From the NCBI GenBank assembly GCA_021775595.1, contig JAJFHN010000084.1, positions 1-63,872 of the forward strand: a DNA stretch of 63,872 bases, in the 5' to 3' direction. Position numbers and translations under genes: made by a program. Position 1 is the first letter of the stretch; every line of letters starts with the position of its first letter. The DNA is from Hyphomicrobiales bacterium (GTDB taxonomy: Bacteria; Pseudomonadota; Alphaproteobacteria; Rhizobiales; Methyloligellaceae). Below, piece after piece: positions 25,336 through 48,139 of the stretch. The notes under the pieces are model-generated. The model was not told where the DNA came from, ran no database searches, and worked only from the letters and a program-made list of their open reading frames with translations.

Positions 25336-26247
25336 TCAGCCCTCACGCGGCAAATAGGCCTTGGCTTCCGCTTTGACGAAGTCGATCAAAGCGCGGGTCT
25401 TGGCCGGCAGATGGGCTCTGTCGGGCGTGATCAACGAGATCGGCCTTTCGCGGCGCACGACCTTATAATCGGACAGCAGGCGCACGATCGATCCCGATTC
25501 GAGCTCGCTCAAAATCGCATAATTGGGAAGTACGCCGACACCGGCGCCTTCGAGAATCAATGTTTTGGCCGTGATGCCGCTTTGCGTCGTGACCGCCGCT
25601 TCGAAGTCCATTGTCACCGTCTCGCCGCTTGGGGCCCGCAACCGCAGTCGTTCGTGTTCGGGCAGTTGGGCAATCGAGATCCATGGGGCGCCTGCCAGGT
25701 CAGCGGGTTTGCGTACACGCTTGCAGCCTGGCCATTTGCGCGCTGCGCACAACACAAGCCCCATCGTGCCGATCCTGGACATGCGTAAATTGGGATCGCT
25801 CACCTCGCCAACCCGGATCGCCAGATCGATTTTTTCTTCGATCAGATTGAGCGGATTGTCATCGAGCACCAAATCGAGCCGGATCTCGGGGTAGCGGGCA
25901 TGGAAGCCAGCGGCGAGTTTGGTGAACACGGTCAACCCGAAATTGACCGAACACGATACCCGCACGAGACCGCGCGCGTCTGCCAGATCGCTCTCAAGTT
26001 CGGCTTCGGCTGCCTCGGCCAATTCCAGCATCTGCCGGCATTTTTCGTAATACCGCCGACCCTCGGCCGTCAGCGCCAGCTTTCGGGTCGTGCGCAACAG
26101 AAGCTGCGCGCCGAGATTTTCCTCGAGCTTCGCTACATGCGCGCTGACAACCGATTTGCTCAGACTGAGCGCTTCGGCAGCGCTTGTGAAGGTGCCTTCC
26201 TCAACGACCTTGGCGAAGACGCCCATGCGGTACAGGTCTTTTAGCAT
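25336..26247 (-). CDS. LysR-family transcription regulator, divergent from the glutathione module
   Basis: The 303-residue protein has an N-terminal winged helix (residues 1-60) with FTSAAEALSLSKSVVSAHVA followed by LEENLGAQLLLRTTRKLALT, and a periplasmic-binding-like effector domain. The ATG at 26247 fits the family start (MLKDLYRMGVFAKVVEEGTF). It is transcribed away from the SDR-GST-CoA-transferase-GST-ALDH run, with 125 bp between the starts, the usual arrangement for a LysR activator of the divergent operon. The co-inducer is unknown but should be a pathway intermediate. Confidence 0.9.
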   Translation of the reverse strand: MLKDLYRMGVFAKVVEEGTFTSAAEALSLSKSVVSAHVAKLEENLGAQLLLRTTRKLALTAEGRRYYEKCRQMLELAEAAEAELESDLADARGLVRVSCSVNFGLTVFTKLAAGFHARYPEIRLDLVLDDNPLNLIEEKIDLAIRVGEVSDPNLRMSRIGTMGLVLCAARKWPGCKRVRKPADLAGAPWISIAQLPEHERLRLRAPSGETVTMDFEAAVTTQSGITAKTLILEGAGVGVLPNYAILSELESGSIVRLLSDYKVVRRERPISLITPDRAHLPAKTRALIDFVKAEAKAYLPREG

Positions 26248-26262
26248 TGTCCTCTTAGACAG

Positions 26263-26278
26263 AATAATCGTTCTTATT
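26263..26278. promoter_or_regulatory. Candidate LysR binding palindrome
   Basis: AATAATCGTTCTTATT has inverted arms AATAA and TTATT around a six-base centre, in the 125-bp space between the LysR gene and the SDR gene. A second palindrome, TTCCGGAA (26315-26322), lies closer to the SDR gene. Both are plausible operator halves, but binding is not shown by sequence alone. Confidence 0.4.
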
Positions 26279-26372
26279 TTTCGATATTTCCAAAGTTTGC
26301 GCAATCAATTATTCTTCCGGAATGACCAAGGAACATTTGCCGTATCGGCAAATCGATGGGAGGAAATTGTTT

Positions 26373-27062
26373 ATGGCTTGCGTACTCGTGGTCGGTGCTG
26401 ATACCGGCATCGCCAATTCTATGTCGCGGCAACTCCACGCGCGCGGCGAAGAAGTCATCGCAGCGTGCCTCGGCGAAGGCGCCGACCTTAGTGAGGCAGG
26501 CATCAGGGTGGTGCCGGGCATAGACGTGACGTCGGATGCCGCCGTTCAAAAATTGGTCGATGATCTCAAAGCGTCCAATACCAAATTGGACAACTTGATC
26601 CACGTCGCTGGCATTTTGGGCTCGGACGATTTGGGTTCGATCGATATGGCCGACGTGCGGAAGCAAATGGAAATCAACGCTATCGGCCCATTGCGCACGA
26701 TCCAGGCGCTGGTGCCGTTCCTGCACGAGGGCTCGAAGGTTGGCCTTGTCACCAGCCGCGTCGCTTCGCTCGGCGACAACACCTCGGGCGGCATGGGTTA
26801 CGGCTACCGGATGTCGAAGGCGGCGGCCAACATGCTGGGCCTCAATCTGCACCATGATTTCAAGAAGCAAGGCATCGCCATGATCATGTTGCATCCTGGC
26901 ATGGTGAAAACGGATTTGACGATCGATTATCATGGCATCGAAGGATTGGAATTCATTACGCCCGACGAGTCGGCGGCCGGCTTGATCAAGCTGGTGGACG
27001 ATCTGACGCTTGAGACATCGGGCGAGTTTCGCCATGCCAACGGCGAGTTATTGCCTTGGTAA
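26373..27062 (+). CDS. Short-chain dehydrogenase, IsoH-like
   Basis: The 229-residue SDR has an altered cofactor loop (VVGADTGIANSM in place of TGxxxGIG), the NAG-type HVAGIL, the catalytic Ser in VTSRVAS, and YGYRMSKAA with the Tyr-x3-Lys pair. The ATG at 26373 follows GGGAGGAA; an earlier ATG at 26322 lacks support. In the isoprene cluster of Rhodococcus sp. AD45, IsoH of similar size oxidises the glutathione-alcohol adduct to the acid. The neighbours here (two GSTs, a CoA-transferase, an ALDH) match that cluster, so an IsoH-type role is inferred. Confidence 0.82.
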   Translation: MACVLVVGADTGIANSMSRQLHARGEEVIAACLGEGADLSEAGIRVVPGIDVTSDAAVQKLVDDLKASNTKLDNLIHVAGILGSDDLGSIDMADVRKQMEINAIGPLRTIQALVPFLHEGSKVGLVTSRVASLGDNTSGGMGYGYRMSKAAANMLGLNLHHDFKKQGIAMIMLHPGMVKTDLTIDYHGIEGLEFITPDESAAGLIKLVDDLTLETSGEFRHANGELLPW

Positions 27063-27128
27063 GGCACGCGTAGGGCTGGTCCGCGAAACGCGGAACGGCT
27101 GAGTGATCAACTGGGAGGAAGTGAAGTA

Positions 27129-27878
27129 ATGCTGAAAATATTCGTCTACAACACACCAGGTACGGGATGGGACGTCCCGTGCGTGAGCCCGTACGTTTCC
27201 AAGACGGTCTATTATCTCAAAATGGCTGGTATTCCGTTCGAAACCGAGCGCCAGGATTTGATGAAATTGGCGGAAGACGCGCCTTACGCCAAGCTGCCCT
27301 ACATCGTCGACACTGACGGCACCAAAGTCGCCGACTCGACCGAGATCATCAAGTATCTCAAGGGCGCATACGGCGATTCGCTCGATGCTGACGCCGACGC
27401 GCGCGAACTGGCCGACATGCATGCCTGGAACCGGATGCTCGATGAGCACCTCTATTGGGCCGCCGTGATCGAACCGCGCTGGGACGACGATGCCAACTTC
27501 GATATTTACCGGCCCTTCCTGGTCGGCATGGATGAGGTTCCCGACGAGGTCAATGCGATCCTCGACCAGTTCCGCACCGCAATACAAGACGAGCATGTTG
27601 GCCAAGGATTGGGCCGCATGGCAGCAGACGCGGTTTACGAGCGCGCCCGCCAGGACATTGAGGCTATTTCGAACTTCTTGGGCGATCGTCCCTTCTTCAT
27701 GGGCGACAAGCCGCGGTCGATCGATGCCAATATGACATCGCTGCTGAAGCACATCATGTATGTGCCGTTTAAGTTCCCGACTAAGGACCTGGCGCTCGGC
27801 ACGAAAAATCTGGTCGATTATACTCATCGCGTGGATAGCCAGTTTGGCTTGAACGAGCTGAGCAAAAAAGCGGCCTAG
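27129..27878 (+). CDS. Glutathione S-transferase, IsoI/FAXC-like
   Basis: The 249-residue GST has a thioredoxin-like N-terminal domain with SPYVSKTVYYLKMAGIPFE, KLPYIVDTDGTKVADSTEII (cis-Pro and the glutathione Glu/Ser-Thr pair) and an all-helical C-terminal domain. This pattern resembles the metaxin/FAXC-type GST group that includes IsoI of the isoprene and StyI of the styrene glutathione pathways, which add glutathione to an epoxide. It sits 66 bp after the SDR gene. The exact substrate cannot be read from sequence. Confidence 0.82.
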   Translation: MLKIFVYNTPGTGWDVPCVSPYVSKTVYYLKMAGIPFETERQDLMKLAEDAPYAKLPYIVDTDGTKVADSTEIIKYLKGAYGDSLDADADARELADMHAWNRMLDEHLYWAAVIEPRWDDDANFDIYRPFLVGMDEVPDEVNAILDQFRTAIQDEHVGQGLGRMAADAVYERARQDIEAISNFLGDRPFFMGDKPRSIDANMTSLLKHIMYVPFKFPTKDLALGTKNLVDYTHRVDSQFGLNELSKKAA

Positions 27879-28033
27879 CGAGTAGCGGTTGAGCCGGCGC
27901 CGCAGATGCTGGCGCCGGACTTGCCGCTCACGTTCGAACGTTTTAGCTGCCGTCGACAGCGACAGCCGTATGGCGTTGCCGGGCCAGATTTGGCCCGGCA
28001 GCCACCGGCCTCACAACACGCATAGGAGATCCC

Positions 28034-29254
28034 ATGTCTGGACCCCTGTCAGGAATCCGCATCATTGACCTCACAGCCATGCTGTCTGGCCCATGGGCGA
28101 CGTGTCTGCTTGCCGATCAAGGCGCTGACGTGATCAAGATTGAAATCCCAAATAAGGGCGAATTCGTTCGCATGATGGGCCACTCCCAGGCCGGGTTGCC
28201 CGCGATGTTTCTCAACATCAACCGCAACAAGCGCTCCCTCACCGTCAATCTGAAAGAAAAGAAGGGCATCGATCTGATAAAGCGCATGGTCGCCGACGCG
28301 GACGTCGTGGTGCAGAATTTCAGACCCGGCGTGGTTGAGCGGCTCGGCATCGGCCCTGAAGATTTGTGCGCGCTCAAGCCCGAACTCATCTACGTCTCGA
28401 TCACGGGCTTTGGCCACGACGGACCCTGGTCTCACAAACCAGTCTACGATCCCGTCATTCAGGCGGTTACGGGTCTCACTACCATCCAGGCGGGCTCCGA
28501 TGAGGAACGCCCGAAGCTGGTGCGCACCATCGTGCCCGACAAGCTTTCCGCCGTCACGATCTCCCAGGCCATCACCGCAGCGCTGTTCGAGCGCGAACGC
28601 TCAGGCGAGGGTCAGGTGGTGCGGATTTCAATGCTCGATTCCGTGCTGCAGTTCCTCTGGGCTTCGGACATGAACGCCCACACATTCGTCGATAATCCGG
28701 TGACTGAAGAAAAAGCCGCAGGCTTCGTCGACCTGATCTACGAGACCAAGGACGGCTTCATGACCGTCGCGATCATGAGCGACAAAGAATGGCGCGGGGT
28801 CTGCACGGCCTTTGAGAAGCTCGAATGGCTGGAGGATCCGCGCTTCAAGAACGCCGCGCTGCGCGATGAAAACGTCATCGATCGCCTGACATTGACGCAA
28901 GAGGTGCTCAAGACCAAAACAACGGCCGAGTGGATGGAGCTGTTGGAGGCAAATGACGTGCCATGCTCGCCCGCTCTCAGACGCAAGGATGTCTACACGC
29001 ATCCCCAGGTCGAGCATATGGGATCGGTCGTGACGTACGAACATCACGCGGCTGGGACATTGCGCCAGGCCCGTCACGCGGCTCGTTTCGAGCGCACCCC
29101 GGCGGCGATCCGCATGGGCGCGCCGCTGTTGGGCGAGCACAACGACGAGGTGTTGGGCGAGCTCGGACTTTCGGATGACGAAATTTCCACTCTGAAGTCC
29201 GAGGGCATCGTCGGCGCCGAGCGCGACGAGGGCAGCAAACAAGCCGCCGAATAG
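28034..29254 (+). CDS. Family III CoA-transferase, IsoG-like
   Basis: The 406-residue enzyme belongs to the CaiB/BaiF/Frc group of CoA-transferases and acyl-CoA racemases. It begins LSGIRIIDLTAMLSGPWATC, with LLADQGADVIKIE, NFRPGVVERLG and the catalytic Asp in VYDPVIQAVTGL. It is preceded by AGGAG near 28023. In isoGHIJ clusters the homologous IsoG attaches CoA to the glutathione-acid intermediate. The gene lies between the two GST genes, matching that pathway. A free-standing CoA-transferase role is the alternative. Confidence 0.88.
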   Translation: MSGPLSGIRIIDLTAMLSGPWATCLLADQGADVIKIEIPNKGEFVRMMGHSQAGLPAMFLNINRNKRSLTVNLKEKKGIDLIKRMVADADVVVQNFRPGVVERLGIGPEDLCALKPELIYVSITGFGHDGPWSHKPVYDPVIQAVTGLTTIQAGSDEERPKLVRTIVPDKLSAVTISQAITAALFERERSGEGQVVRISMLDSVLQFLWASDMNAHTFVDNPVTEEKAAGFVDLIYETKDGFMTVAIMSDKEWRGVCTAFEKLEWLEDPRFKNAALRDENVIDRLTLTQEVLKTKTTAEWMELLEANDVPCSPALRRKDVYTHPQVEHMGSVVTYEHHAAGTLRQARHAARFERTPAAIRMGAPLLGEHNDEVLGELGLSDDEISTLKSEGIVGAERDEGSKQAAE

Positions 29255-29334
29255 TGGGGCTTGGCATTTCGACCGCGGCCGCAGCGTGTTAGGCTGCAGG
29301 GCGGTCGGATGCTGTGGGATGAAGCCGACAGGCA

Positions 29335-30099
29335 ATGAGTGTCTCAGGGCACAAGCGGGATGTAAGTAAAGTGATTGAGCTCTTTTACGATGCAACGCCG
29401 AACGGCCGCAAAGCCCTCATCATGCTGGAAGAATGCGGGCTGGCCTACAATCTGAATTGGATTGAGATCGCCAAGGGCGACCAACACCATCCGGACTATT
29501 TGGAGATTTCTCCGAACGGCAAAATTCCAGCGATTATCGATCCCGATGGCCCCGGCGGTAAGCGCGTCACGGTCTTCGAGACGGGCGCGATCTTGTTGTA
29601 TCTTGCCGAGAAGACCGGCAAGTTTCTCTCCGCCGATCCGGTTGAGCGCATTGACGCCATAAAGTGGCTGTTCTGGCAGACCTCAAGCATGGGTCCGTTT
29701 GTCGGCCAGGCTGTTCATTTCATCAATTACGCCCGCGACCGCGGCATCGACGACACCTACGCCGTCGACCGCTATACGGCCGAGGCTGAGGGCCTCTACG
29801 ACGTGCTGGAAGAGCATCTCGAGGGCCGCGACTATATGGCTGGCGATTACTCGATCGCCGATATTGCGACGTTTCCCTGGGTCCGAGTTGCCAAGGGCCA
29901 CGGAATTGACATCACCCAGTACGACAATATTAGAAATTGGAGCGCCAGGATTTCCGAACGCCCGTCCACCCGCGTCAAGCCAACGATCCCGGAAAAGGAC
30001 GCCTCCTTCGAGCGCATCGATGGCTCAGACGAGGAATCCTGGAAAAACCTGTTCGACAAGAAACCCAAATCCGCCGCGCAAACCGCAAAGACCACTTGA
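29335..30099 (+). CDS. Glutathione S-transferase, YfcG/IsoJ-like
   Basis: The 254-residue GST has an N-terminal thioredoxin domain with ELFYDATPNGRKALIMLEEC, NGKIPAIIDPDGPGG (cis-Pro), ETGAILLYLAEKTG and the C-terminal helical domain motif AGDYSIADIATFPWVR. This is the Nu-class/YfcG-like pattern, able to act on disulfide or thioether bonds. In the iso and sty clusters the second GST (IsoJ, StyJ) is placed at the glutathione-removal end of the route. The start may be the ATG at 29335 or the GTG at 29371. A linker of 40 bp separates it from the aldehyde dehydrogenase. Confidence 0.85.
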   Translation: MSVSGHKRDVSKVIELFYDATPNGRKALIMLEECGLAYNLNWIEIAKGDQHHPDYLEISPNGKIPAIIDPDGPGGKRVTVFETGAILLYLAEKTGKFLSADPVERIDAIKWLFWQTSSMGPFVGQAVHFINYARDRGIDDTYAVDRYTAEAEGLYDVLEEHLEGRDYMAGDYSIADIATFPWVRVAKGHGIDITQYDNIRNWSARISERPSTRVKPTIPEKDASFERIDGSDEESWKNLFDKKPKSAAQTAKTT

Positions 30100-30139
30100 A
30101 GACCAGCGCGCCGCCGCCTGCAGTTGAGAGGATTTCCCT

Positions 30140-31564
30140 ATGAACGTACACGTCAAACCAACTTTGCCGATGCTGATCAATGGCCAGCTCGTCGCATCAA
30201 ACAAGACATTCGATGTCACGAACCCATCCACCGGCACGACCTTCACCCAATGTCCAGACTGCACCAAAGAGCAGTTCGAAGATGCGGTCGCTGCCGCCAA
30301 GGAAGCCTTCAAGACGTGGGGCAAGACGAGTTACGAAGAGCGAAAGGCGCTGCTGGAGCAGCTCGGCGCCCGCCTCACCGAAAACGCCGACACATTGGCC
30401 GAGCTGATCACCCTGGAAAACGGAAAACCGCTTGCCAAAGCCAAGCAGGAAATCGCCGCCAGCGTATTCTGGCTAAAGGGCTTTGCCGCGGTCGACTTTC
30501 CTGTCGAGGTGTTGAAGGACAATGAAACTCAACGCGTCGAGCTTCACCGGAAACCGCTGGGTGTCGTCGGACTGATTTTGCCGTGGAATTACCCGCTAAT
30601 GACGGCGATGTTCAAATTGGCTCCGGCTCTGATCGCCGGCAACACCATCGTCGTGAAACCGTCGCCATACACGCCGGTGACGACCCTGATATTGGGTGAG
30701 ATCGTCCAAGACCTCTACCCCGCCGGCGTCATCAATGTGCTCTCGGGCGGTAATGAGCTTGGCGCCTGGATCAGCGGCCATCCCGACATACGCAAGGTGA
30801 GCTTCACCGGTTCGACGGAGACCGGCAAGAAAGTGATGCAGAGCGCCTCGTCCAACATGAAGCGCGTCACCATGGAGCTTGGCGGCAATGACGCCGGCCT
30901 CGTGCTCGACGATATCGATCCGAAAATGATCGCCAATGATTTGTTCTGGTCGCGGTTCTCGAACAACGGCCAGGTCTGTGTCGCAATGAAGCGCCTGTTC
31001 GTGCCCGAGAAGCTCGCCGAACCGATTGCCAAAGAAATCGTCGAAGTGGCCAAAAATGCCAAGGTCGGCGATGGCTTCGATGAGGATAGCGAAATAGGCC
31101 CGATCCAAAACAAGATGCAATATGAGAAGGTGAAGGCGATCTTCGACGACGCCGTCTCGAAGGGCGCGAAGGTGCTCTTTCAGAGCGAGATTCCCGAAAG
31201 CGATGGTTATTTTTTCCCCATCACAATCTTGACCGATGTAAAGCCGGGCATGCGCATCATTGACGAAGAGGCTTTCGGCCCGCTGATGCCCATTCTTACC
31301 TATACGGATGAGGAAGAAGCCCTCGAGCGCGTCAACGACTCCGAATACGGCCTTGGCGGTTCGGTTTGGAGTTCGGACGTGGATCGCGCCAGCGCCCTGG
31401 CAGAACGTATCGAATCCGGGACGGCCTGGGTCAATCAGCACCCCTCGATGGCGCCCGATATTCCCTATGGCGGCGCTAAGCAATCGGGCATCGGCGTCGA
31501 GAGCGGCCGCTGGGGTGTCGAGGAATATACCCAAATGCAGGTTGTCAGCGTCAAGAAGACCTAG
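30140..31564 (+). CDS. NAD(P)-dependent aldehyde dehydrogenase
   Basis: The 474-residue enzyme has the family motifs GLILPWNYPLMTAMFKLAPAL, the glycine motif FTGSTETGKKV, the Glu in MELGGNDAG and the catalytic Cys280 in NNGQVCVAM. Its C-terminus carries GIGVESGRWGVEEYTQ. It oxidises an aldehyde to a carboxylic acid. AldH genes accompany isoGHIJ clusters, and this gene is the last of the five-gene run. A strong terminator follows 31 bp after its stop. Confidence 0.9.
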   Translation: MNVHVKPTLPMLINGQLVASNKTFDVTNPSTGTTFTQCPDCTKEQFEDAVAAAKEAFKTWGKTSYEERKALLEQLGARLTENADTLAELITLENGKPLAKAKQEIAASVFWLKGFAAVDFPVEVLKDNETQRVELHRKPLGVVGLILPWNYPLMTAMFKLAPALIAGNTIVVKPSPYTPVTTLILGEIVQDLYPAGVINVLSGGNELGAWISGHPDIRKVSFTGSTETGKKVMQSASSNMKRVTMELGGNDAGLVLDDIDPKMIANDLFWSRFSNNGQVCVAMKRLFVPEKLAEPIAKEIVEVAKNAKVGDGFDEDSEIGPIQNKMQYEKVKAIFDDAVSKGAKVLFQSEIPESDGYFFPITILTDVKPGMRIIDEEAFGPLMPILTYTDEEEALERVNDSEYGLGGSVWSSDVDRASALAERIESGTAWVNQHPSMAPDIPYGGAKQSGIGVESGRWGVEEYTQMQVVSVKKT

Positions 31565-31594
31565 GGCGCGAGCGCGCTTCCAGCAAATTGATAA

Positions 31595-31625
31595 GGGCGG
31601 GGCCAAGGCCCCGCCCTTTCTTTAT
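31595..31625 (+). terminator. Rho-independent terminator after the glutathione module
   Basis: A perfect ten-base-pair GC stem, GGGCGGGGCC/GGCCCCGCCC (31595-31604 and 31607-31616), with a minimal loop is followed by TTTCTTTAT. It ends transcription of the SDR-to-ALDH run before the TRAP genes. Confidence 0.85.
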
Positions 31626-31739
31626 GGCGCTCGGGCTTGCGCCCTGCTTTGCGAATCTGCGCACGGATGGCTACTTTAGCCCGCCGTCTCAGGCCGATTC
31701 GGCTTCTTCCAACGGTTCTGCCCGCAAGGAGTGCAAGAG

Positions 31740-32270
31740 ATGCGTCAGCTCATCAGTTGGCTCGACGAGAACATCGAGCGCACGGTGATCTTGCTGAACT
31801 ACACCGCGCTCGCCGCCATCATCTTTGTCGAGGTGATCCGGCGGTTTGTTTTTGCTGAGCAGGCCGCTTGGAGCACCACCATTCCCATTTATCTCTTCCT
31901 TTGGGTTGTTTGGATGGGCTGCGCCTACAACGTCAAAACGCGCAGTCATTTGCGTTTCGACGAATTACGCACACGCCTTTCTTATGAAGGCCAACTGGCC
32001 TGCCTGTTGCTGGATGCCGCCCTGTGGATCGTCTTCTCGCTCATCGTCATCTACTACACCGGCGAACAGGTGATGATCGCGCGCGAGAATTTCTCTATCG
32101 TCCAAGGGACCGACAATGTGATGCAGTGGTGGTTCTATCTCGCCACGCCGATCGCCTTTTTGCTGGTGATCGTGCGAACGCTGCAGAACCTTCGCGAAGA
32201 CGTCGCGGCCTATCGCGCCGGCGTGCCGCTCGCCGTCCGCTCAACCGCCTTCCAGGAAGATCACGTCTAG
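31740..32270 (+). CDS. dctQ: TRAP transporter small permease (DctQ)
   Basis: The 176-residue protein has four membrane helices, the usual layout of the small TRAP membrane subunit. Residues 1-25 lead into LLNYTALAAIIFVEVIRRFV, and later RENFSIVQGTDNVMQWWFY. AAGGAG at 31726-31731 supports the ATG at 31740 over a GTG at 31731. TRAP transporters import organic acids using a sodium or proton gradient. The large subunit starts directly after the stop. Confidence 0.87.
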   Translation: MRQLISWLDENIERTVILLNYTALAAIIFVEVIRRFVFAEQAAWSTTIPIYLFLWVVWMGCAYNVKTRSHLRFDELRTRLSYEGQLACLLLDAALWIVFSLIVIYYTGEQVMIARENFSIVQGTDNVMQWWFYLATPIAFLLVIVRTLQNLREDVAAYRAGVPLAVRSTAFQEDHV

Positions 32271-33638
32271 ATGGAGGCGGTTTGGATCAGCCTGCTCTCG
32301 CTCGCCGTCACCGGGCTCTTTATCTTGGGCGTGCCTATTTTTCTGGTGATCGGCTTCTGGGTGATCGGCGCCAGTCTGGTGATCGACTTCACTCTCGCAA
32401 ATCTTGGCGTCACGCTCTACGAGGGCCTCAATTTCTACGGCCTGCTGGCCATGCCGCTCTTCGTCTTGACCGGAGACCTCATCAAGGGTGCGGGCATCGC
32501 CAAGCGGCTCTCCGACTTCGCATATTCGGTGCTTGGCTGGATGCGTGGCGGCCTGGCGATGGCCTCGCTCGGCGCTTCAGGCCTGTTTGCCGCCATTTCG
32601 GGTTCGAACTCGGCCACCACCGCGACCATCGGCTCGATCATGCACCCGGAGATGGTCAAGGGCGGTTATGACAAGAATTTCGCCGCGGCCACCGTGGCCG
32701 CCGGCGGCACTGTCGGCATCATCATCCCGCCATCGATCATTTTCATCGTCTATGGCTTCCTGCTGAACATTTCGGTAAGCGACCTCTTTGTCGGTGGGAT
32801 CTTGCCGGGAATCCTGATGGTTGTAGCCATGCAATTTGCCTGTTGGCTCGTTTGCCAACTGAACGGATGGGGCCATCTGATTTCCTTTTCGCCACGGCGC
32901 ATCTTGCTCGCCGGGCTCGCCGCTTGGCCGGGTTTCGCGGCGATTGCGCTCGTTATATGGGGCATTTATTCCGGCGCTTTCTCGCCGACCGAAGCGGCGG
33001 GGGTATCGGCTGGCTTCTGTTTGCTGGCTGGGCTTGCCTTCTATCCGATTCACCAGCGGTTGCTTCGAAGCGGGCGCGTGGGGTCGGGTGATGACCTCCG
33101 CCTCTCCGGTCTCGTTATCGAGGGTTTCTCGCTCTCAACGGTGCCCAGTCTGATAATGCGCTCCGGCCGCATCACCGGCATGCTCGTGCCTCTGGTTGCC
33201 GTCTCCGTGGTCATGCAACAGATTCTAAGCCTGCTTGGCGCCAACGCATTCGTCACGCAAGTGTTGGGCGCGCTTGGCGGCTATTACGCCATTTTGTTTG
33301 CCTGCATGGCGCTTGTTTTAATCGCTGGTACGTTTTTGGAGAGCCTGCCCAACACCATAATCTTGGCGCCGATACTTGCGCCGATCGCCGTCGGCATCGG
33401 TGTCGATCCAATCCACTTTGCGGTGATCTTCTTGGTCGGTGACGCCATCGGCTTCATCACGCCGCCATATGGGCTCAACCTCTATGTGGCCAGCGGCATC
33501 ACAGGCATTCCCTATTTCAGGTTGTTGAAATACACCCTGCCCTATCTGTTTGCTCTGATGCTGGCTTGGCTGCTTATCGCGCTGGTGCCCGAACTTTCCA
33601 CCGCGCTGTTGGTGCATGAGGGCGCGGGCGTCTACTGA
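32271..33638 (+). CDS. dctM: TRAP transporter large permease (DctM)
   Basis: The 455-residue inner-membrane subunit carries the transport channel. Family signs are GLLAMPLFVLTGDLIKGAG, SGLFAAISGSNSATTATIGS, GTVGIIIPPSIIFIVYGFLL and FITPPYGLNLYVASGITGI. About twelve hydrophobic segments are visible. Its ATG directly follows the dctQ stop. Its 3' end overlaps the convergent substrate-binding gene by 7 bp. The substrate of the system is unknown; the location beside the glutathione module hints at an acid or alcohol feeding that route. Confidence 0.91.
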   Translation: MEAVWISLLSLAVTGLFILGVPIFLVIGFWVIGASLVIDFTLANLGVTLYEGLNFYGLLAMPLFVLTGDLIKGAGIAKRLSDFAYSVLGWMRGGLAMASLGASGLFAAISGSNSATTATIGSIMHPEMVKGGYDKNFAAATVAAGGTVGIIIPPSIIFIVYGFLLNISVSDLFVGGILPGILMVVAMQFACWLVCQLNGWGHLISFSPRRILLAGLAAWPGFAAIALVIWGIYSGAFSPTEAAGVSAGFCLLAGLAFYPIHQRLLRSGRVGSGDDLRLSGLVIEGFSLSTVPSLIMRSGRITGMLVPLVAVSVVMQQILSLLGANAFVTQVLGALGGYYAILFACMALVLIAGTFLESLPNTIILAPILAPIAVGIGVDPIHFAVIFLVGDAIGFITPPYGLNLYVASGITGIPYFRLLKYTLPYLFALMLAWLLIALVPELSTALLVHEGAGVY

Positions 33639-34882
33639 GCGCCCTGAGTTCGCCACCAGCGGCGCGGTTCCACATTGATAGCCTCGCGGTCTTTGGGAAT
33701 TTCGCGCGCGATGTCGAAGATCTCCTGATAGGTGTCGAGGCCGCCGGCCCAACCGTTCAGCCGCTCACGCCAGGTCTCCCAGGCCTTGGGCTGATACTGC
33801 GGCGAACACATTTCCTCGGCCTCCTTGATTGCTTCATCTGAGAGCGCCGCGACGCGGATATTGCCCTTGGCGTAATAGGTGTCGGGCAACGGCGGATTGC
33901 TGGCGCCGACAATTTGGTAAAGACCCGCTTCGTTGCAGCCCTGTGCCCACACCTGTGTCGTGTAGGCCGATTCCATCACCGCGTCTTGGAGTTCCGGCGA
34001 TAGCGCTTCGAACGACTGCAGCCGCATCGCCGTGCCGGCGCAACCGGAGAAGAATTTGAGCTGCACGTCCTGCGACATGACCGGCACCATATTGGCGTGT
34101 ACGGCGGCGCTCGACCAAGTTTCGGCGCCGTCCACCAAGCCTTGCTTAAGACCGTCGAGCGTTTCCTCCCAAGCGATCGGTACGGGATTGAGCTTCATCA
34201 GGTCCATCGCGATGCGGCCCAGTTGCGTGCCAGTCACCCTATTCTTGGTGCCCGCCAATTCGCTAACGCTCGTAACGGTAGGTCGGTCCTTCCATTTCTT
34301 GCCCAGCATCAGCCCGCGCAGTTCGGCATGGCTGAAGAGAAGCTGCAATTTGTGGCGTTTGCGCAGGGGCTCACGCAGCAGCGCCTCACTCTTTGGATGG
34401 TAGAAGAAGTGATACATCGCGGCCCGGCTTGGAAACATATAGGCGTAGTCGAGCACATTGAAATATGGCGCACCGCCAGCCGCATTCTGGGTCGAAGAGA
34501 CATAGATATCGACGATGCCTTGCAGCGCCTTTTTCACACAATCGAGCTGACCGCAAATCTGGCTGGCGCCGAGAAATTCAATGCGAACGGCACCATCGGT
34601 GCGCTCTTCGAGATCTTGCACGAAGCGCAGCGCACCGGAATGTTCGATTTGCTGGACGAATTCATTGATGGTCGCCGCGCCAAATTTCAGTGTGACCTCG
34701 GGCTGTTTGCTGAAGCGCGTTTGGTAAGTAGAATTGGCGGCCTCGGCCAGGCGCGGTAACGTGACGGCACCGGCCAAACCAGAAAGGCCGAGCAGCGTCG
34801 ACGTCACGCCGTAGTGCGCGCTGAGCCGCATAAAATCGCGCCTGCTCACCCCCGCCAGCTTTGATTTCATAGAACGCTTCAT
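33632..34882 (-). CDS. dctP: TRAP transporter substrate-binding protein (DctP), Tat exported
   Basis: The 416-residue periplasmic protein has a twin-arginine signal (VSRRDFMRLSAHYG) and a hydrophobic stretch ending near AEAANS. The DctP fold follows: TLKFGAATINEFVQQIE, DGAVRIEFLGASQICGQLDC, TGTQLGRIAMDLMKLNPVPI and GLVDGAETWSSAA. The Arg and the TQLG-type helix mark the carboxylate-binding TRAP family. The ATG at 34882 fits the signal. It is convergent with dctM, so the SBP has its own promoter in the 245-bp space shared with the ferredoxin reductase gene. Confidence 0.89.
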   Translation of the reverse strand: MKRSMKSKLAGVSRRDFMRLSAHYGVTSTLLGLSGLAGAVTLPRLAEAANSTYQTRFSKQPEVTLKFGAATINEFVQQIEHSGALRFVQDLEERTDGAVRIEFLGASQICGQLDCVKKALQGIVDIYVSSTQNAAGGAPYFNVLDYAYMFPSRAAMYHFFYHPKSEALLREPLRKRHKLQLLFSHAELRGLMLGKKWKDRPTVTSVSELAGTKNRVTGTQLGRIAMDLMKLNPVPIAWEETLDGLKQGLVDGAETWSSAAVHANMVPVMSQDVQLKFFSGCAGTAMRLQSFEALSPELQDAVMESAYTTQVWAQGCNEAGLYQIVGASNPPLPDTYYAKGNIRVAALSDEAIKEAEEMCSPQYQPKAWETWRERLNGWAGGLDTYQEIFDIAREIPKDREAINVEPRRWWRTQGAQ

Positions 34883-35127
34883 TGCGCGCCATCCTCTGAT
34901 GTTCAACTGCCCACTGTATGTGCACATCCGGGCCGCCGCGGGCAACAGCTGAGCCAAGCTATTTGGTTACACTTTGGTAAGTCGGTGTCGCTGGCGCGAT
35001 CAAATCCTGCCCGTTTTGCCAGCCATCACAATCGCGCGATTGAGCCCCGTTTGCTGGCGCAGACCAGCGCGCGCCTATATGGTGCGGGCCGATCGCAATG
35101 CATGTTTTGAGGGGCGCGCATAAGCCT

Positions 35128-36156
35128 ATGACCGAGCCGAAAAAAACCTTTCTCATCACCAATGCGTCCACCGATGATGCGTTTGAGCAAGCGCGCGACG
35201 ACTGTGTTCTGCGCGCCGCGTTGCGCGCTGGTTTGGGATATCCCTATGAGTGCAATTCGGGTGGATGCGGCAGTTGCAAATTCACCCTTGTCTCCGGCGA
35301 TGTCGAGGTGTTGTGGAAAGACGCACCGGCCCGCCGCGAGCGCGACGCCGAAAACAACCGCTATCTTGGCTGCCAAACGCGCGCGCTCAGTGATCTCACC
35401 GTCGAGGCGCGCATCGTGCCCAAATTCGTGCCCAAACATCTGCCCGCCGTGCGGCGCGCGAGGCTCGATGCGGTGACCGATTTGACATCTGATATCCGCG
35501 AATTCAGCTTCGCCAGCGATGCACCGGCGGCGTTTCTGCCGGGCCAATACGCAATTCTATTGCTGGGCGAGGAGCCGACGCGGCGCTGTTACTCGATGAG
35601 CAACGTCCCCAACGAGCAAGGACTCTGGCTGTTTCAGATCAAGCGCGTGGCGGATGGCGTAGCGAGCGACCAGCTTTTCTCCCTCGAACCGGGAGACGAA
35701 ATCAGCTTCGATGGCCCCTATGGCATGGCCTATGTGCGGCCCGAAACGCCACGCGACGTACTCTGCATTGCCGGTGGCTCGGGTCTCTCGCCTATGGTCT
35801 CGATCGCGCGATCGGTCGGCCTCGATGAAGCCCAGGGCAGCAAGCGGCTTTACTTCTTCTATGGCGGGCGCACGGCAGCGGACATTTGCGGTGAAAACTA
35901 TCTCACCGACCTGCCTGGCTTCGGCGAGCGCATAACCTATCACCCAGTTGTCTCCGAGCCCGATGATGCCAAAAGCACCGGTTGGTCCGGCGCCACTGGC
36001 TTCGTGCACGAGGAAGCCGACCGCGAACTCGGCGATGCGCTCAAGGAATTGGAAATCTATTTTGCCGGGCCGCCGCCCATGGCGGCGGCGGTGCAGAAAA
36101 TGCTGATGGGCCGTGAGGTGCCGTTCGGCCAATTGCACTTCGACCGGTTTTTTTAG
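35128..36156 (+). CDS. 2Fe-2S/FAD/NAD electron-transfer reductase (oxygenase reductase type)
   Basis: The 342-residue reductase has an N-terminal plant-type ferredoxin domain with CNSGGCGSCKF and the fourth ligand in YLGCQTRA. An FAD domain with RRCYSMSN follows, then an NAD domain with CIAGGSGLSPMVSIAR and YFFYGGRTAADI. This matches the reductases of soluble di-iron monooxygenases and Rieske oxygenases. The ATG at 35128 starts the domain; an earlier one at 35098 is not needed. No oxygenase subunit gene is in the window, so its partner is elsewhere. A haloalkane dehalogenase gene follows 49 bp downstream. Confidence 0.9.
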   Translation: MTEPKKTFLITNASTDDAFEQARDDCVLRAALRAGLGYPYECNSGGCGSCKFTLVSGDVEVLWKDAPARRERDAENNRYLGCQTRALSDLTVEARIVPKFVPKHLPAVRRARLDAVTDLTSDIREFSFASDAPAAFLPGQYAILLLGEEPTRRCYSMSNVPNEQGLWLFQIKRVADGVASDQLFSLEPGDEISFDGPYGMAYVRPETPRDVLCIAGGSGLSPMVSIARSVGLDEAQGSKRLYFFYGGRTAADICGENYLTDLPGFGERITYHPVVSEPDDAKSTGWSGATGFVHEEADRELGDALKELEIYFAGPPPMAAAVQKMLMGREVPFGQLHFDRFF

Positions 36157-36205
36157 GCGCGGCCTCTCACGCGATGAAGCACCGGCAGTTGGAGAGTTTG
36201 AACCC

Positions 36206-37081
36206 ATGACCAGCACCGCGGAATTGGCGAAAAAGAAGATCGGCGTTCTCGGCCGGCAGATGGCCTACGTGGAGATGGGCGCCGGTGATCCGATCGTGTT
36301 TCTGCACGGCAATCCGACATCGAGCTATCTCTGGCGCAATGTCATGCCGCATTTGTCGGGACAAGGCCGGCTGATCGCACCCGATCTCATCGGCATGGGC
36401 GACAGCGACAAACTGCCGGACAGCGGCCCTGAGCGCTATACTTTGGCCGAGCATCGAGACCATCTCTTCGCCCTGTTGGAGGCGCTCGATGTCACATCCA
36501 ACGTCACATTGGTTCTGCACGATTGGGGATCCGCGCTCGGTTTCCATTGGGCCGAGCACCATGCCGACGCGCTCAAGGGCGTCGCTTATATGGAGGCGAT
36601 CGTGCGCCCGCTCACCTGGGACGATTTTCCAAACAGCGTGCGGGACACCTTTAAGGCCTTCCGTTCGCCAGCCGGTGACGAACTGATCTTGCAGAAAAAC
36701 TTATTTGTCGAGGGCTTGTTGCCGGGCGCCATCATGCGCACGCTCGAGCCCGAAGAGATGGATGTCTACCGCAAGCCCTTCTTAGAGCCCGGTGAAGACC
36801 GCCGGCCGATGCTCTCATGGCCGCGCCAGATTCCGATCGAGGGCGAACCGGCCGAAGTCGTTCAGTGGGTCGAATCCTACGGCAAGTTCATGGAGAGCTC
36901 GCCGGTTCCCAAGTTATTCGTCGACGCCGACCCAGCCGCACTGTTGCGGGGCGAGGTGCGCGACTATTGCCGTACCTGGCCAAACCAGCAGGAAGTCACC
37001 GTCGCTGGCACGCATTTTATCCAGGAGGACTCTCCCCATGAGATCGGCGAGGCCGTATCAGCCTGGTTGAAGGGAATTTGA
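36206..37081 (+). CDS. Haloalkane dehalogenase (LinB/DhaA-like, HLD-II)
   Basis: The 291-residue alpha/beta hydrolase cleaves carbon-halogen bonds hydrolytically. The nucleophile Asp106 and halide-binding Trp107 lie in LVLHDWGSALGFHWAEH. The second halide ligand Asn36 is in FLHGNPTSSYLWRN, the acid Glu130 in AYMEAIVRPLTWDDF, and the base His270 in AGTHFIQEDSP. All five positions are exactly two below the LinB numbering. GGAG precedes the ATG at 36206. Together with the reductase upstream, it may be part of a chlorinated-compound route, although natural substrates are unknown. Confidence 0.92.
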   Translation: MTSTAELAKKKIGVLGRQMAYVEMGAGDPIVFLHGNPTSSYLWRNVMPHLSGQGRLIAPDLIGMGDSDKLPDSGPERYTLAEHRDHLFALLEALDVTSNVTLVLHDWGSALGFHWAEHHADALKGVAYMEAIVRPLTWDDFPNSVRDTFKAFRSPAGDELILQKNLFVEGLLPGAIMRTLEPEEMDVYRKPFLEPGEDRRPMLSWPRQIPIEGEPAEVVQWVESYGKFMESSPVPKLFVDADPAALLRGEVRDYCRTWPNQQEVTVAGTHFIQEDSPHEIGEAVSAWLKGI

Positions 37082-37883: not shown

Positions 37884-38573
37884 ATGGACGCGTTGCCCCG
37901 CCAAAATTCCCTGCTTGAATCCGTCTATGAGGCGGTGCGCGACTCGATCTGCGACGGCGATCTAAAGCCCGGCGAACGCATCACCCAAGAGGCCATCGCC
38001 GAAAAGCTTGATGTTTCGCGCCAGCCTGTCAATCAGGCGCTTATCCTGTTGCGCGCCCAAGGCTTCATTCAAGATGCCGGCCGGCGCGGCGTCATGGTGA
38101 CGCCGTTGGATGCGAATTCCGTTCAGAAAATCTACGAAATTCGATCTGCCCTCGATCAGCTTGCGGCCCGCCTGGCGGCTGAGCGCGGCGACAAGGCTGG
38201 CATCGCCGAAGGCTACAAACTCATCGAAAAAGTGCGCGCTGGCGACGACACCGCCTCGACCGGCGATTTGGTGCGCGCCGATATGAGTTTTCACGAGTTG
38301 GTCTATCGGCTTTCGGGCAACGATCTCATTCAGTCTTCGCTCACTCCTTATTGGCATCACCTTCGGCGCGTCATGGCTGCGGTGATCGACATAGGCTTTG
38401 AGAGCACGCGTATTTGGAATGAGCATGAGGGGATTATAGCGGCCATCGAGGCCGGTCAGTCCGAGCTGGCGGCTGAACGCGCCGCGGCTCATGTCGACGC
38501 AGCCCGCCTGTCGCTGACCGAAAGCCTTATCGCGCAAGCCTCAGTCGAGGCGGGCCCTGATGCCGAACACTGA
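37884..38573 (+). CDS. GntR-family (FadR/FCD) regulator of the hcm operon
   Basis: The 229-residue protein has an N-terminal winged helix (residues 5-75) with ESVYEAVRDSICDGDLKPGE, VSRQPVNQALILLRAQG and GRRGVMVTPLD. An FCD helical effector domain follows, with FHELVYRLSGN and an HAAA/H pattern that can bind metal or carboxylates. It is the first gene of the operon that continues with hcmB 23 bp downstream, and an inverted repeat operator lies upstream. It probably represses the operon until 2-hydroxyisobutyrate or its CoA ester is present. The effector is inferred. Confidence 0.9.
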   Translation: MDALPRQNSLLESVYEAVRDSICDGDLKPGERITQEAIAEKLDVSRQPVNQALILLRAQGFIQDAGRRGVMVTPLDANSVQKIYEIRSALDQLAARLAAERGDKAGIAEGYKLIEKVRAGDDTASTGDLVRADMSFHELVYRLSGNDLIQSSLTPYWHHLRRVMAAVIDIGFESTRIWNEHEGIIAAIEAGQSELAAERAAAHVDAARLSLTESLIAQASVEAGPDAEH

Positions 38574-38596
38574 TTTTAACGCGAGGAGTTGAAGCT

Positions 38597-39016
38597 GTGG
38601 CAGATTCAAAAAAGACCCCAATTAGGGTGATGATGGCGAAGATCGGCCTTGATGGCCATGATCGCGGCGTCAAAGTGGTGGCGCGCGCGTTGCGCGACGC
38701 CGGCATGGACGTGATTTATACCGGCCTGCACAGGACGCCAGAGGAGGTCGCGCTCGCCGCCGTACAGGAGGACGTCGACGTCCTCGGCATTTCCCTGCTG
38801 TCGGGCGCGCACATGACGATCTTTCCCAAAGTCCTGCGTGTGCTGAAAGAGCAGGACGCCAAGGGCATCATTTTGCTGGGCGGCGGCGTTATGCCCGATG
38901 AGGACGTTACCGAGCTAAAGGCAATGGGCGTCCAGGGGGTTCTGCTACAGGACACACCGCCCAACGCGATCATCGAGACCATCGAGACCCTCGTTGCCGA
39001 ACGCGGCGCGCGCTAG
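38597..39016 (+). CDS. hcmB: B12-binding subunit of 2-hydroxyisobutyryl-CoA mutase (HcmB-like)
   Basis: The 139-residue protein is a stand-alone cobalamin-binding domain. GLDGHDRGVKVVARAL carries the Asp-x-His-x2-Gly motif with His21 as lower cobalt ligand, and LGISLLSGAHMTIFPKV and LLGGGVMPDED line the corrin pocket. The GTG at 38597 is supported by GAGGAG ten bases upstream. HcmB of Aquincola tertiaricarbonis has the same role and similar size. It should pair with the large subunit encoded at 41429. A methylmalonyl-type small subunit is the alternative, but the large-subunit signature argues against it. Confidence 0.83.
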   Translation: MADSKKTPIRVMMAKIGLDGHDRGVKVVARALRDAGMDVIYTGLHRTPEEVALAAVQEDVDVLGISLLSGAHMTIFPKVLRVLKEQDAKGIILLGGGVMPDEDVTELKAMGVQGVLLQDTPPNAIIETIETLVAERGAR

Positions 39017-39025
39017 GAGGGCGAG

Positions 39026-40456
39026 ATGGAATTTTGGTCCTTTCCCCCGAACTACGACAACTCGTACTTGCCCGATCCCAAGGCAAAATACTGGTTTCCC
39101 GAGCGCGAGACCATGGATCCGGCCAAGCGAGACCACCTGATCCTCGAACGGCTCAAGGAAGTTACCGCCTATGCCTATGAGCACGCGCCGTTCTATCGCA
39201 ATCACTGGGAGCAAGCCGGCTTCCACCCCGATCATTTGAAGTCGCTCGAGGACTTCGAGGACAAGGTGCCGGTCATAAAGAAGACCGACATCCGCGAGGC
39301 GCAAGCCCGCGCGCCGCTGTTCGGTGATTATCTCTGCATCGACGAGAAAGATATCTTCCGCGTTCATGGAACGTCCGGAACCACGGGACGACCGACCGCT
39401 TTTGCGATCGGACGCGACGACTGGGACGCCATCTCCAATGCGCATGCCCGCATCATGTGGGGCATGGGTCTGCGCCCGGGTGACATCATCTTCGTCGCCG
39501 CCGTGTTTTCGCTGTATCTGGGGGCCTGGGGGGCGCTGGCGGGCGCCGAGCGCATGGGCGCAACCTCGCTTCCCTTTGGCGCCGGAGCCGCCGGCATGAC
39601 TTCGCGCGCCGTCATGTGGCTCAGGGACGTCAAACCCAAAGCTTTCTACGGCACACCCTCATTCGCGCTCCATTTGGCGGAAACCGCCAAGGACGAGGGG
39701 ATCGACCCGCGCGAATTTGAGATGGATGTCTTGTTTTTCTCTGGCGAACCCGGTGCGTCCATTCCCGGTGTGCGGGACCGCATTGCCGAGACTTACGGTG
39801 CGCGCGTTATCGACACCGGCTCAATGGCCGAGATGACGCCGTGGATGAATCTGGCGGGTTCGGCCGAGACCGACGGCATGATCGTCTGGCAAGACGTCAG
39901 CTACACCGAAGTGTGCGACCCAGAAACCAGTCGCCGCGTGCCCTATGGCGAGCGCGGCACACCGGTCTACACCCACTTGGAGCGCACTTCGCAACCGATG
40001 ATCAGGTTGATGTCGGGCGATTTGACCCGTTGGGAAAACGGCCCAACGCCTTGCGGACGCACATATCCGCATCTGCCTGATGGCGTTTTCGGACGGATCG
40101 ATGATTCTTTCACGATCCGGGGCGAGAACATCTATCCCAGCGAAATCGATTCGGCGCTCAACCAAATCGAAGGCTATGGCGGCGAGCACCGCATCATCAT
40201 CACCCGCGATGCCGCGATGGATGAGCTCAATATCAGGGTCGAGGCCGCCGACGAACTGAGCGCCAAGGGCGAAGCCGCGGTCAATGGCTTTCGCGATGCA
40301 TTGCGCGACGAATTCACCCGCATGCTCGGCATACGCACCCAGGTCGAAATCGTGCCCGAGCACTCGATTGAGCGCACCGACTTCAAGGCCCGCCGGGTGA
40401 TCGACGACCGTGAAGTGTTCCGCGAATTTGGCACCAAACTTTCGGAGAAAAGCTGA
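39026..40456 (+). CDS. hcl: Acyl-CoA synthetase, probable 2-hydroxyisobutyrate-CoA ligase
   Basis: The 476-residue enzyme is an AMP-forming ligase of the phenylacetate-CoA ligase subgroup. The P-loop is HGTSGTTGRPT (residues 114-124), with FYGTPSFALHL, the Glu in MAEMTPWMN, SGDLTRW and the C-terminal GENIYPSEID and Lys-containing TDFKARR. Both the length and subgroup fit HCL, which activates 2-hydroxyisobutyrate in Aquincola. It lies between hcmB and meaH in a tight operon. Other short acids would be alternative substrates. Confidence 0.8.
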   Translation: MEFWSFPPNYDNSYLPDPKAKYWFPERETMDPAKRDHLILERLKEVTAYAYEHAPFYRNHWEQAGFHPDHLKSLEDFEDKVPVIKKTDIREAQARAPLFGDYLCIDEKDIFRVHGTSGTTGRPTAFAIGRDDWDAISNAHARIMWGMGLRPGDIIFVAAVFSLYLGAWGALAGAERMGATSLPFGAGAAGMTSRAVMWLRDVKPKAFYGTPSFALHLAETAKDEGIDPREFEMDVLFFSGEPGASIPGVRDRIAETYGARVIDTGSMAEMTPWMNLAGSAETDGMIVWQDVSYTEVCDPETSRRVPYGERGTPVYTHLERTSQPMIRLMSGDLTRWENGPTPCGRTYPHLPDGVFGRIDDSFTIRGENIYPSEIDSALNQIEGYGGEHRIIITRDAAMDELNIRVEAADELSAKGEAAVNGFRDALRDEFTRMLGIRTQVEIVPEHSIERTDFKARRVIDDREVFREFGTKLSEKS

Positions 40457-40460
40457 GCCA

Positions 40461-41432
40461 ATGAGCGTTGTCGCTTCCAAGGATTTGGTGAAAGGCGTCT
40501 TCGAGGGCCGTATCTGGGCAATCGCGCGCATGATCACGCGCGCTGAAGCAAGCGATAGGGCCTCGGAGGATGCTCTAGCAGAAATCTACAAGTCCTCGCG
40601 CAACGCCCATGTGGTCGGAATTACCGGCGTGCCGGGCAGCGGTAAGTCGACGCTCGTTGCCGAGCTCTGCAAGACGATCCGCAAGAGCGGTCGCAAGGTC
40701 GGCATCATCGCCGTCGATCCAACCTCCCCCTTCAGCGGCGGCGCTATCCTTGGCGACCGTATCCGCATGGGCGAGCTTGTTGGCGACGAGGGTGTTTTCA
40801 TTCGGTCCATGGCGACCCGGGGAGCTTTGGGCGGGCTTTCGCGCGCGACTCTGCCCGCGATCGATATATTGGATGCGGCCGGTTTCGATATCGTCATTAT
40901 CGAGACCGTTGGCGTCGGCCAAGACGAAGTCGACGTGGTGCGCGCCGCGCACACCACCGTGGTGGTTTCGGCGCCTGGATTGGGCGACGACATCCAGGCG
41001 ATCAAGGCCGGTATCTTGGAAATTGCAGACATACATGTGGTCTCCAAGTGCGATCGCTCGGACGCCAACAAGACGATCAGCGAACTCAAAAACATGTTGG
41101 CCATTGGGCTGGGTCTGAGTGCGCCGAGCGCCTGGACGCCGTCGGTGATCGCGACCAGCGCCGCCAAAAAAGAGGGCATCGACACCTTGGCCGAGGCGAT
41201 CGATTCCCACGTCAAGGTGCTCAAAGAGAGCGGCGAATGGCAATCCAGGCGGCTGACCATGGCCGAAATGCGCTTGCTGAAGACGGCCGAAGACATTCTG
41301 AGGGACGAATTCGAACGCCATCGCGCTGGCAAGATCCAGGCGCTGGTGAAGAAATTGGCTAACGCGGAGATTGCGCCACAGGGCGCCGCGCGCAAGCTGT
41401 TGGAAGATGTGTGGAAGGAGATTTCGCTATGA
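40461..41432 (+). CDS. meaH: MeaB-type GTPase chaperone of the B12 mutase (MeaH)
   Basis: The 323-residue G3E-group GTPase protects and reloads adenosylcobalamin in acyl-CoA mutases. Walker A is GVPGSGKS (residues 56-63), with the base-switch IIAVDPTSPFSGGAILGDRI, the Asp-rich IIETVGVGQDEVDVV and the SKCDRSDA specificity loop. The ATG at 40461 follows the ligase stop by 4 bp. Its TGA overlaps the ATG of the mutase large subunit (ATGA), so the two are coupled and probably made in a set ratio. Confidence 0.88.
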   Translation: MSVVASKDLVKGVFEGRIWAIARMITRAEASDRASEDALAEIYKSSRNAHVVGITGVPGSGKSTLVAELCKTIRKSGRKVGIIAVDPTSPFSGGAILGDRIRMGELVGDEGVFIRSMATRGALGGLSRATLPAIDILDAAGFDIVIIETVGVGQDEVDVVRAAHTTVVVSAPGLGDDIQAIKAGILEIADIHVVSKCDRSDANKTISELKNMLAIGLGLSAPSAWTPSVIATSAAKKEGIDTLAEAIDSHVKVLKESGEWQSRRLTMAEMRLLKTAEDILRDEFERHRAGKIQALVKKLANAEIAPQGAARKLLEDVWKEISL

Positions 41433-47241: not shown

Positions 47242-47242
47242 G

Positions 47243-48121: not shown

Positions 48122-48139
48122 CGTATCTCTAGATATAAT

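Follow-up and report, generated by a model that had tools for sequence, protein, structure and literature searches.

Why should a bacterium keep what looks like a full set of genes for processing an epoxide through glutathione, with no oxygenase beside it to make that epoxide? The question is raised by a 63,872-nucleotide contig (JAJFHN010000084.1, hereafter the window) in the draft genome GCA_021775595.1 of a Hyphomicrobiales bacterium of the Alphaproteobacteria. At positions 26373-31564, an initial annotation made from the letters alone had noticed five genes resembling the isoGHIJ and styGHIJ modules of isoprene and styrene degradation. Judged by their sequences, the five enzymes are an iso/sty-type glutathione set, and the family assignment holds. 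The reading that we prefer, and hold with evenly balanced confidence, is that of an isoprene-type glutathione operon for a small 2-methyl-branched epoxide, whose oxygenase was lost, replaced or is missing from the assembly. Two further features, a reductase of the IsoF type and an operon for a 2-hydroxyisobutyryl-CoA mutase (HCM), had been overlooked in the same window.

An iso/sty-type glutathione operon

The short-chain dehydrogenase/reductase (SDR), the FAXC-type glutathione S-transferase (GST), the family III CoA-transferase, the YfcG-type GST and the aldehyde dehydrogenase (ALDH) first recognized in this region were all confirmed, and lie contiguously on the forward strand with undamaged reading frames (Table 1). 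In five protein trees each of them falls with the iso/sty proteins and away from paralogues, which upholds the original proposal of an iso/sty-type epoxide-processing set; the GSTs and the SDR, for which a position outside the iso/sty clades had been considered, are placed with those sets. The tree rows were gathered by tblastn at a coverage of at least 70% and identities of at least 28% (H, I), 36% (J), 38% (ALDH) and 45% (G), after removal of overlapping loci (L063-L065, L122 and L129 in all trees; L128 and L157-L175 in those of G, J and ALDH; L numbers designate loci and C numbers contigs of the draft). In the H tree the window protein is sister to 11 iso/sty-type rows (support of 97/89 for the 12-row set), and a separate clade of 33 rows (19 genomes, duplicates included) holds the IsoH-like SDRs of the order. 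The 12-row iso/sty sets that include the window in the G and J trees are likewise separate from the two-gene CoA-transferase/GST pairs described below, with which a GST of L024, initially labelled J, groups. The window IsoI joins those of Ramlibacter and two metagenome-assembled genomes (MAGs) of Rhodospirillales (L023, L024) with 99/98 support, and in the ALDH tree, which has 14 rows and a single distant outgroup, a 98/98 branch puts the window protein on the side of Ramlibacter.

Of the two curated NCBIfam models, that of IsoI (NF049950) is passed by the window protein, at 306.6 bits against a cut-off of 300, and that of IsoH is narrowly missed, with the score given below. StyI (9qd3, E 1.3e-48) is the sole PDB sequence that matches the window IsoI at E ≤0.001. 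Identities to the iso set of Ramlibacter sp. WS9 are 62% (G), 57% (H), 52% (I), 51% (J) and 55% (ALDH), and those to the sty set of Gordonia rubripertincta CWB2 are 56% (G), 51% (H), 50% (J), 48% (ALDH) and 38% (I; 37% in a second comparison). The YRMSK motif of the window IsoH begins at residue 145, and the window IsoG has Asp169 and Leu17 at the positions reported for IsoG of Variovorax WS11 (PMC10057887).

The gene order is isoH-isoI-isoG-isoJ-aldH, rather than the G-H-I-J order implied by the name first given to the module. The divergent LysR gene and the strong terminator described with it are indeed present, and tight spacing is found for three of the gaps (H-I 66, G-J 80 and J-aldH 40 bases) but not for I-G, at 155 bases. 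An AGGA/GGAGG-like stretch is seen by eye 5' of four of the five starts, with a weaker one at isoJ. A longer isoH frame is possible from 26322; the longest LysR frame spans 25336-26304, the internal ATG being favoured by the frames of its homologues in L023 and L024. The LysR protein is 43% identical to the isoG-adjoining LysR of Ramlibacter WS9 and 38% and 36% identical to the isoH-adjoining LysRs of L024 and L023 respectively. A promoter-like TTAGCA-16-AATAAT at 26241-26268 overlaps the left end of the LysR/isoH gap; such sites are not enriched in the scanned region (3, versus 3.2 in shuffles). The operon has a G+C content of 0.58 and its neighbours 0.57-0.595, so there is no sign of a very recent arrival.

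The same genome also encodes an IsoI-like paralogue on C35 (L021 7448-8161), which lies just beyond the iso and sty proteins in the I tree and is weakly excluded from them (80/22), and an IsoH-like paralogue on C64 (L087 2340-3017), which together with one copy from L037 lies just outside the iso/sty set of the H tree. We considered these copies as a second cluster and found this unsupported: their contigs (12.5 and 15.0 kb) are without other genes of the set, with the exception of a 29% IsoJ-like GST on C64, 7 kb from the IsoH copy.

Table 1. Features of the window around the glutathione operon, in window coordinates
Feature	Positions	Strand	Evidence or remark
LysR-type regulator	25336-26247	-	PF03466/PF00126; divergent; likely start is the ATG at 26247
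LysR/isoH divergent gap	26248-26372		125 bases, counted from the likely LysR start
IsoH-like SDR (predicted glutathione-conjugate dehydrogenase)	26373-27062	+	NF049951 score, tree, YRMSK motif
IsoI-like, FAXC-type GST (predicted epoxide GST)	27129-27878	+	NF049950, PDB match, tree
IsoG-like family III CoA-transferase	28034-29254	+	PF02515; tree 100/99 with iso/sty G; Asp169 and Leu17
IsoJ-like (YfcG-type) GST	29335-30099	+	Family matches; tree 99/96 with iso/sty J
AldH, ALDH	30140-31564	+	PF00171; NGQVCVA and ELGGND motifs; small tree
Intrinsic terminator	31593-31618	+	11-pair stem, 9 pairs G-C
Tripartite ATP-independent periplasmic (TRAP) transporter	31731-34957	DctQ +, DctM +, DctP -	Tied to the operon by position only
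Oxygenase reductase (2Fe-2S, FAD, NAD)	35098-36156	+	Homologous to IsoF and toluene monooxygenase reductases
LinB-type haloalkane dehalogenase	36173-37081	+	NF002938 428 bits (cut-off 241); PDB 7pw1 438 bits
HCM operon	37884-43123	+	Begins 6.3 kb downstream of the glutathione operon
GntR	37884-38573	+
hcmB	38597-39016	+
hcl (ligase)	39026-40456	+	Best PDB match 6hdw, 758 bits vs 239 bits
meaB/meaH	40410-41432	+
hcmA	41411-43123	+	Best PDB match 4r3u, 970 bits vs 435 for methylmalonyl-CoA mutase
RuBisCO/CbbX/aldolase genes and aerobic CO dehydrogenase cluster	277-4298 and 46036-53489		Flank the operon

The absent oxygenase and related loci

The initial annotation saw neither isoABCDEF nor styAB in the window. 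This stands for IsoA, IsoB, IsoC, IsoD, IsoE, StyA and StyB, none of which has a match there at E 1e-3, but a homologue of the reductase IsoF at 35179-36153 (35% identity, E 7e-46), about 3.5 kb downstream of the operon, had been missed. The genome-wide search for di-iron monooxygenases that it proposed points the same way: in the draft (2.90 Mb, 103 contigs, 97.8% complete) there is no match to PF02332, which covers two subunits of the soluble di-iron monooxygenases and is positive in 9 of 15 other genomes, including Ramlibacter WS9 and the genomes of L023 and L024. The draft likewise has no match to PF17885 (StyA; 3 of 5 other genomes positive) or to the Rieske alpha subunit (PF00848; 4 of 14 control genomes positive). 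Two FA_desaturase matches (336 and 356 residues), examined as candidates for an AlkB-type oxygenase, were read by length and motif only as ordinary desaturases. The absence from the draft assembly of any oxygenase of the searched families is thus supported; copper monooxygenases lie outside that search, and the absence is not proved for the organism. A complete isoprene cluster, with isoABCDEF beside the module, is not present, as the window holds the IsoF-type reductase only.

The window resembles the clusters of isoprene degraders (Ramlibacter WS9, and Variovorax WS11 and Rhodococcus AD45 as described in papers) in having the same five families and a divergent LysR gene, and its IsoI and AldH side with the proteobacterial iso clusters in the trees; it differs in its H-I-G-J-aldH order and in the lack of isoABCDE. 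The styGHIJ and ALDH genes of Gordonia rubripertincta CWB2 encode the same five families at 38-56% identity, but the window is without styAB, and in the H, I, J and ALDH trees, although not in that of G, it lies outside a supported clade made up of the sty proteins. With the Rhodospirillales MAGs L023 and L024 the window has in common an I protein of the same clade and a LysR gene divergent from H-I, whereas isoI is followed there by isoABCDE and here by G-J-aldH; moreover, the fetched stretches of L023 and L024 have no isoF match, while the window has its IsoF-type reductase downstream. These MAGs (CAR2_bin_5 and RHO3_bin_58) encode IsoA proteins 75-76% identical to that of Ramlibacter, and they are possible isoprene oxidizers.

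A scan of named genomes with the IsoI alignment gave 36 loci, of which seven unite G, H, I, J and ALDH, as does a Gordonia plasmid. Among the seven, isoA adjoins the set in L025 and L029 and styA in L034; styA lies elsewhere in the genome for L031 and L033, and the genome of L030 has two PF02332 matches. The remaining locus, L026 from Actinomycetospora endophytica, has the complete G-H-I-J-ALDH set with gshB and no isoA or styA match in a 20 kb stretch; its genome has no PF17885 match and three further matches to PF02332, among them a protein 23% identical to IsoA. The oxygenase adjoins the glutathione genes in the iso loci L023, L024, L025, L029 and L032.

Among relatives, members of the individual families do occur, and the full set was not seen in the loci read. 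At E 1e-30, IsoH-like SDRs are encoded by 34 of the 397 order genomes (this genome included), and none of 19 read among the other 33 has the set in stretches of 3.4 to 20 kb, the nearest approaches being an IsoJ-like GST (51%) about 2.4 kb away in L101 and a weak IsoI-like GST (28%) about 1 kb away in L106. Since such SDRs reach 53% identity in relatives without the set, single-gene similarity was rejected as a test of membership. IsoG-like CoA-transferases are found at E 1e-115 in 18 of the 397 genomes (own included), and the full set was not seen in 14 of the other 17 that were read, seven of them over only 1.5 kb around the gene. At the level of the class they occur in 45 of 385 genomes (own included); none of the 14 read among the other 44 has the full H-I-G-J-aldH set, though L128 coincides with the L023 cluster and L129/L156 has G and H adjacent. 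In L156 (9127-12229) the adjacent G and H are followed by what appears by eye to be the start of a MetE-like frame, with a further GST nearby, possibly forming another thiol-linked cluster.

A recurrent arrangement in these genomes joins just two genes, one for an IsoG-like CoA-transferase and one for an IsoJ-like GST (L142, L144-L155, L131, L132 and L140), the GST adjoining the CoA-transferase in 13 of 14 loci from the order and 3 of 14 from the class. These alphaproteobacterial pairs consist of the same two families as G and J of the window, but they form separate clades from iso/sty G and J, and neither H nor I appears in the 1.5 kb (in some cases 10 kb) read. The initial annotation had raised the prospect of the five genes turning up in unrelated combinations in relatives; this is seen only for more distant homologues, namely IsoH-like SDRs, IsoI-like GSTs and the CoA-transferase/GST pairs, and these form separate clades.

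The mutase operon and the genomic setting

From its gene content and matches, the segment downstream of the dehalogenase is a well-supported candidate for a 2-hydroxyisobutyryl-CoA mutase operon (Table 1). The window HcmA carries Ile90 and Asp117 (101 and 128 in crystal-chain numbering), which we take to be the marker residues of HcmA. The hcmB-hcl-meaB-hcmA order is common to Methylibium petroleiphilum PM1, Xanthobacter Py2 and Agrobacterium. Methylibium also shares the GntR gene, and its HcmA is 75% identical to that of the window, but the GntR gene is divergent there and on the same strand as the operon here. At E 1e-230 HcmA occurs in 7 of the 397 order genomes, own included.

The neighbourhoods of nine other HCM loci, found in six order genomes and three plasmids, were inspected. 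They extend some 9 to 10 kb past hcmA; towards GntR and beyond, seven reach about 20 kb, and the contigs of L113 and L116 stop after about 2 and 5 kb. Within these stretches the TRAP genes, a close reductase and a dehalogenase were not found. Some weak matches were recorded near them, namely at 27-28% in L114 and a 35% ALDH in L115. In L206 (Agrobacterium), at a distance of 9 to 18 kb, there are a CoA-transferase of 33% identity and, 7 kb beyond it, an annotated GST. An obligate partnership of the HCM operon with the glutathione operon is unsupported by these nine loci. In a different genome of the class, L165 (6242-9573) has an IsoG-like CoA-transferase (57%) beside a set of B12-dependent mutase genes (HcmB-, MeaB- and HcmA-like, 33-37%); there, too, the two kinds of system adjoin each other, although the mutase is a different one.

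The reductase between the two operons has the carbazole-system reductase 7c3a as its best PDB match, followed by the toluene-4-monooxygenase reductase 4wqm, and shares 52% identity with a reductase that Paraburkholderia aromaticivorans has inside a di-iron monooxygenase cluster. Among 12 fetched loci with homologous reductases (4 plasmids and 8 order genomes), a di-iron monooxygenase lies beside the reductase in three (L188, L194 and L197), and the other three reductase-bearing plasmids (L189-L191) have Rieske-type genes nearby. In the draft genome the reductase is present though no di-iron or Rieske alpha subunit was found to use it. Directly 3' of it lies the dehalogenase, whose start was chosen by hand (the longest frame runs from 36113), which passes the curated model and whose nearest solved sequences are LinB-type.

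The window further encodes the RuBisCO large subunit, CbbX, fructose-bisphosphate aldolase and ispG, as well as an aerobic CO dehydrogenase (CoxL 1349 bits, cut-off 991). This gene content suggests that the host is likely to be a carboxydotroph, that is a CO-oxidizing autotroph or mixotroph. Since the RuBisCO, cox and ispG genes lie around it, the glutathione operon is most likely chromosomal.

Proposed pathway and competing explanations

In Variovorax WS11, IsoI makes the conjugate HGMB, IsoH oxidizes it to GMBA with acceleration by AldH, and the predicted roles of IsoG and IsoJ are formation of a CoA thioester and reductive removal of glutathione, respectively; growth on isoprene requires isoG, isoJ and aldH each (PMC10057887; PMC9804861). 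By analogy with Variovorax and Rhodococcus, the window IsoI would open a small branched 1,2-epoxide with glutathione, IsoH and AldH would oxidize the alcohol of the conjugate to an acid, IsoG would form its CoA thioester, and IsoJ would strip off the glutathione by means of a second glutathione, releasing an acyl-CoA to central metabolism. The HCM operon might take 2-hydroxyisobutyrate arising from the alternative hydrolysis and oxidation of the epoxide. Isoprene-degrading Rhodococcus strains are described as also having a 2-hydroxyisobutyryl-CoA ligase/lyase cluster, for which a second, hydrolytic route was suggested (PMC7176365); in the light of the literature on both routes, a region with both for 2-methyl-branched epoxides makes sense. 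The presence of the IsoF-type reductase and the HCM operon in one window points to branched C4/C5 compounds, and we infer that the two operons may cooperate here. The epoxide would most likely be 2-methyl-branched, of the isoprene or isobutylene oxide type, and would arrive from outside or from an as yet unrecognized oxygenase.

Several observations weigh against this interpretation. In their trees the H and J proteins of the window fall into neither the iso nor the sty clade, and the terminal branches leading to the window proteins, at 0.43 to 1.05 changes per site, are long. The substrate may therefore be some compound other than isoprene or styrene. The window IsoH, at 339.7 bits on NF049951, is also slightly below the cut-off of 350. 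The glutathione set is absent from the nine other HCM loci within the stretches read, which makes the neighbourhood of the two operons a single observed case. In passages of PMC13188929, Mycolicibacterium ELW1 is described as hydrolysing isobutene without glutathione conjugation. The genome encodes two P450s (C3:363-1598 and C48:13519-14682), and with a draft of 103 contigs a plasmid may have escaped binning.

The last point leads to the alternative of an ordinary alkene degrader with an isoABCDE-like oxygenase on a plasmid or an unbinned or missing contig, of which the reductase at 35098-36156 would be a part. The iso genes of both model strains sit on megaplasmids (PMC10057887), the IsoF-type reductase stands without a di-iron or Rieske alpha subunit, and homologous reductases can adjoin a di-iron monooxygenase, as in the three loci above. 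On the other hand the genome is 97.8% complete, the iso loci keep their oxygenase adjoining whereas the window has none in 26 kb upstream and 32 kb downstream, and the operon lies among chromosomal genes; we consider this alternative somewhat unlikely. We regard as quite unlikely that the module was re-purposed for detoxification of another electrophile, whether a halogenated or chlorinated epoxide tied to the dehalogenase or an endogenous epoxide. This would accord with the LinB-type dehalogenase and TRAP genes between the two operons, with the position of H and J outside iso and sty, and with the additional I and H copies on C35 and C64, which branch deeply, and the Rhodococcus IsoI was reportedly first described through its activity on cis-1,2-dichloroepoxyethane. 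However, the full assimilation set of CoA-transferase, second GST and ALDH is kept, which goes beyond the needs of detoxification, the operon is set off by its terminator from the TRAP and dehalogenase genes, and a dehalogenase lies beside such a set at no other searched locus. That the five genes are a chance neighbourhood of common families is very improbable: the IsoH-like SDRs and CoA-transferase/GST pairs of relatives do mean that single-gene similarity proves little, but the trees set the five window proteins apart from those copies, and the regulator and the H-I order are common to iso clusters, which already contradicts this explanation.

Returning to the isoprene-type operon that we prefer, a full-text search (PMC12917321 included, with subscription literature mostly outside its reach) found no paper describing a complete isoGHIJ-aldH set that lacks isoABCDEF, which is weak evidence of novelty. 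An isoprene-degrading Alcaligenes is described in parts of PMC9030188 as lacking the usual iso oxygenase genes and also isoG, isoI and isoJ, the reverse of the window, which keeps the glutathione set. A homology analysis that does not take up the oxygenases (PMC8552685) found StyI and StyJ homologues to co-occur in most cases, and every organism except one had five or more related proteins.

A bolder proposal, which we think unlikely though worth stating, is a chromosomal, oxygenase-independent pathway in a CO-oxidizing autotroph that lives partly on epoxides leaked by isoprene or isobutene oxidizers, the HCM operon taking the hydrolysed fraction; there would then be two complementary routes for one leaked compound. 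The neighbourhood of both routes is also relevant to where 2-hydroxyisobutyrate comes from in nature, a source described in passages of PMC7176365 as not yet identified. Isoprene emissions are comparable to those of methane, and surveys of their bacterial sinks target the oxygenase gene isoA. Such surveys would miss a downstream set that is complete but lacks isoA, and such a set would mean either that the use of the epoxide is separable from the oxidation of the alkene or that an unrecognized oxygenase feeds the pathway.

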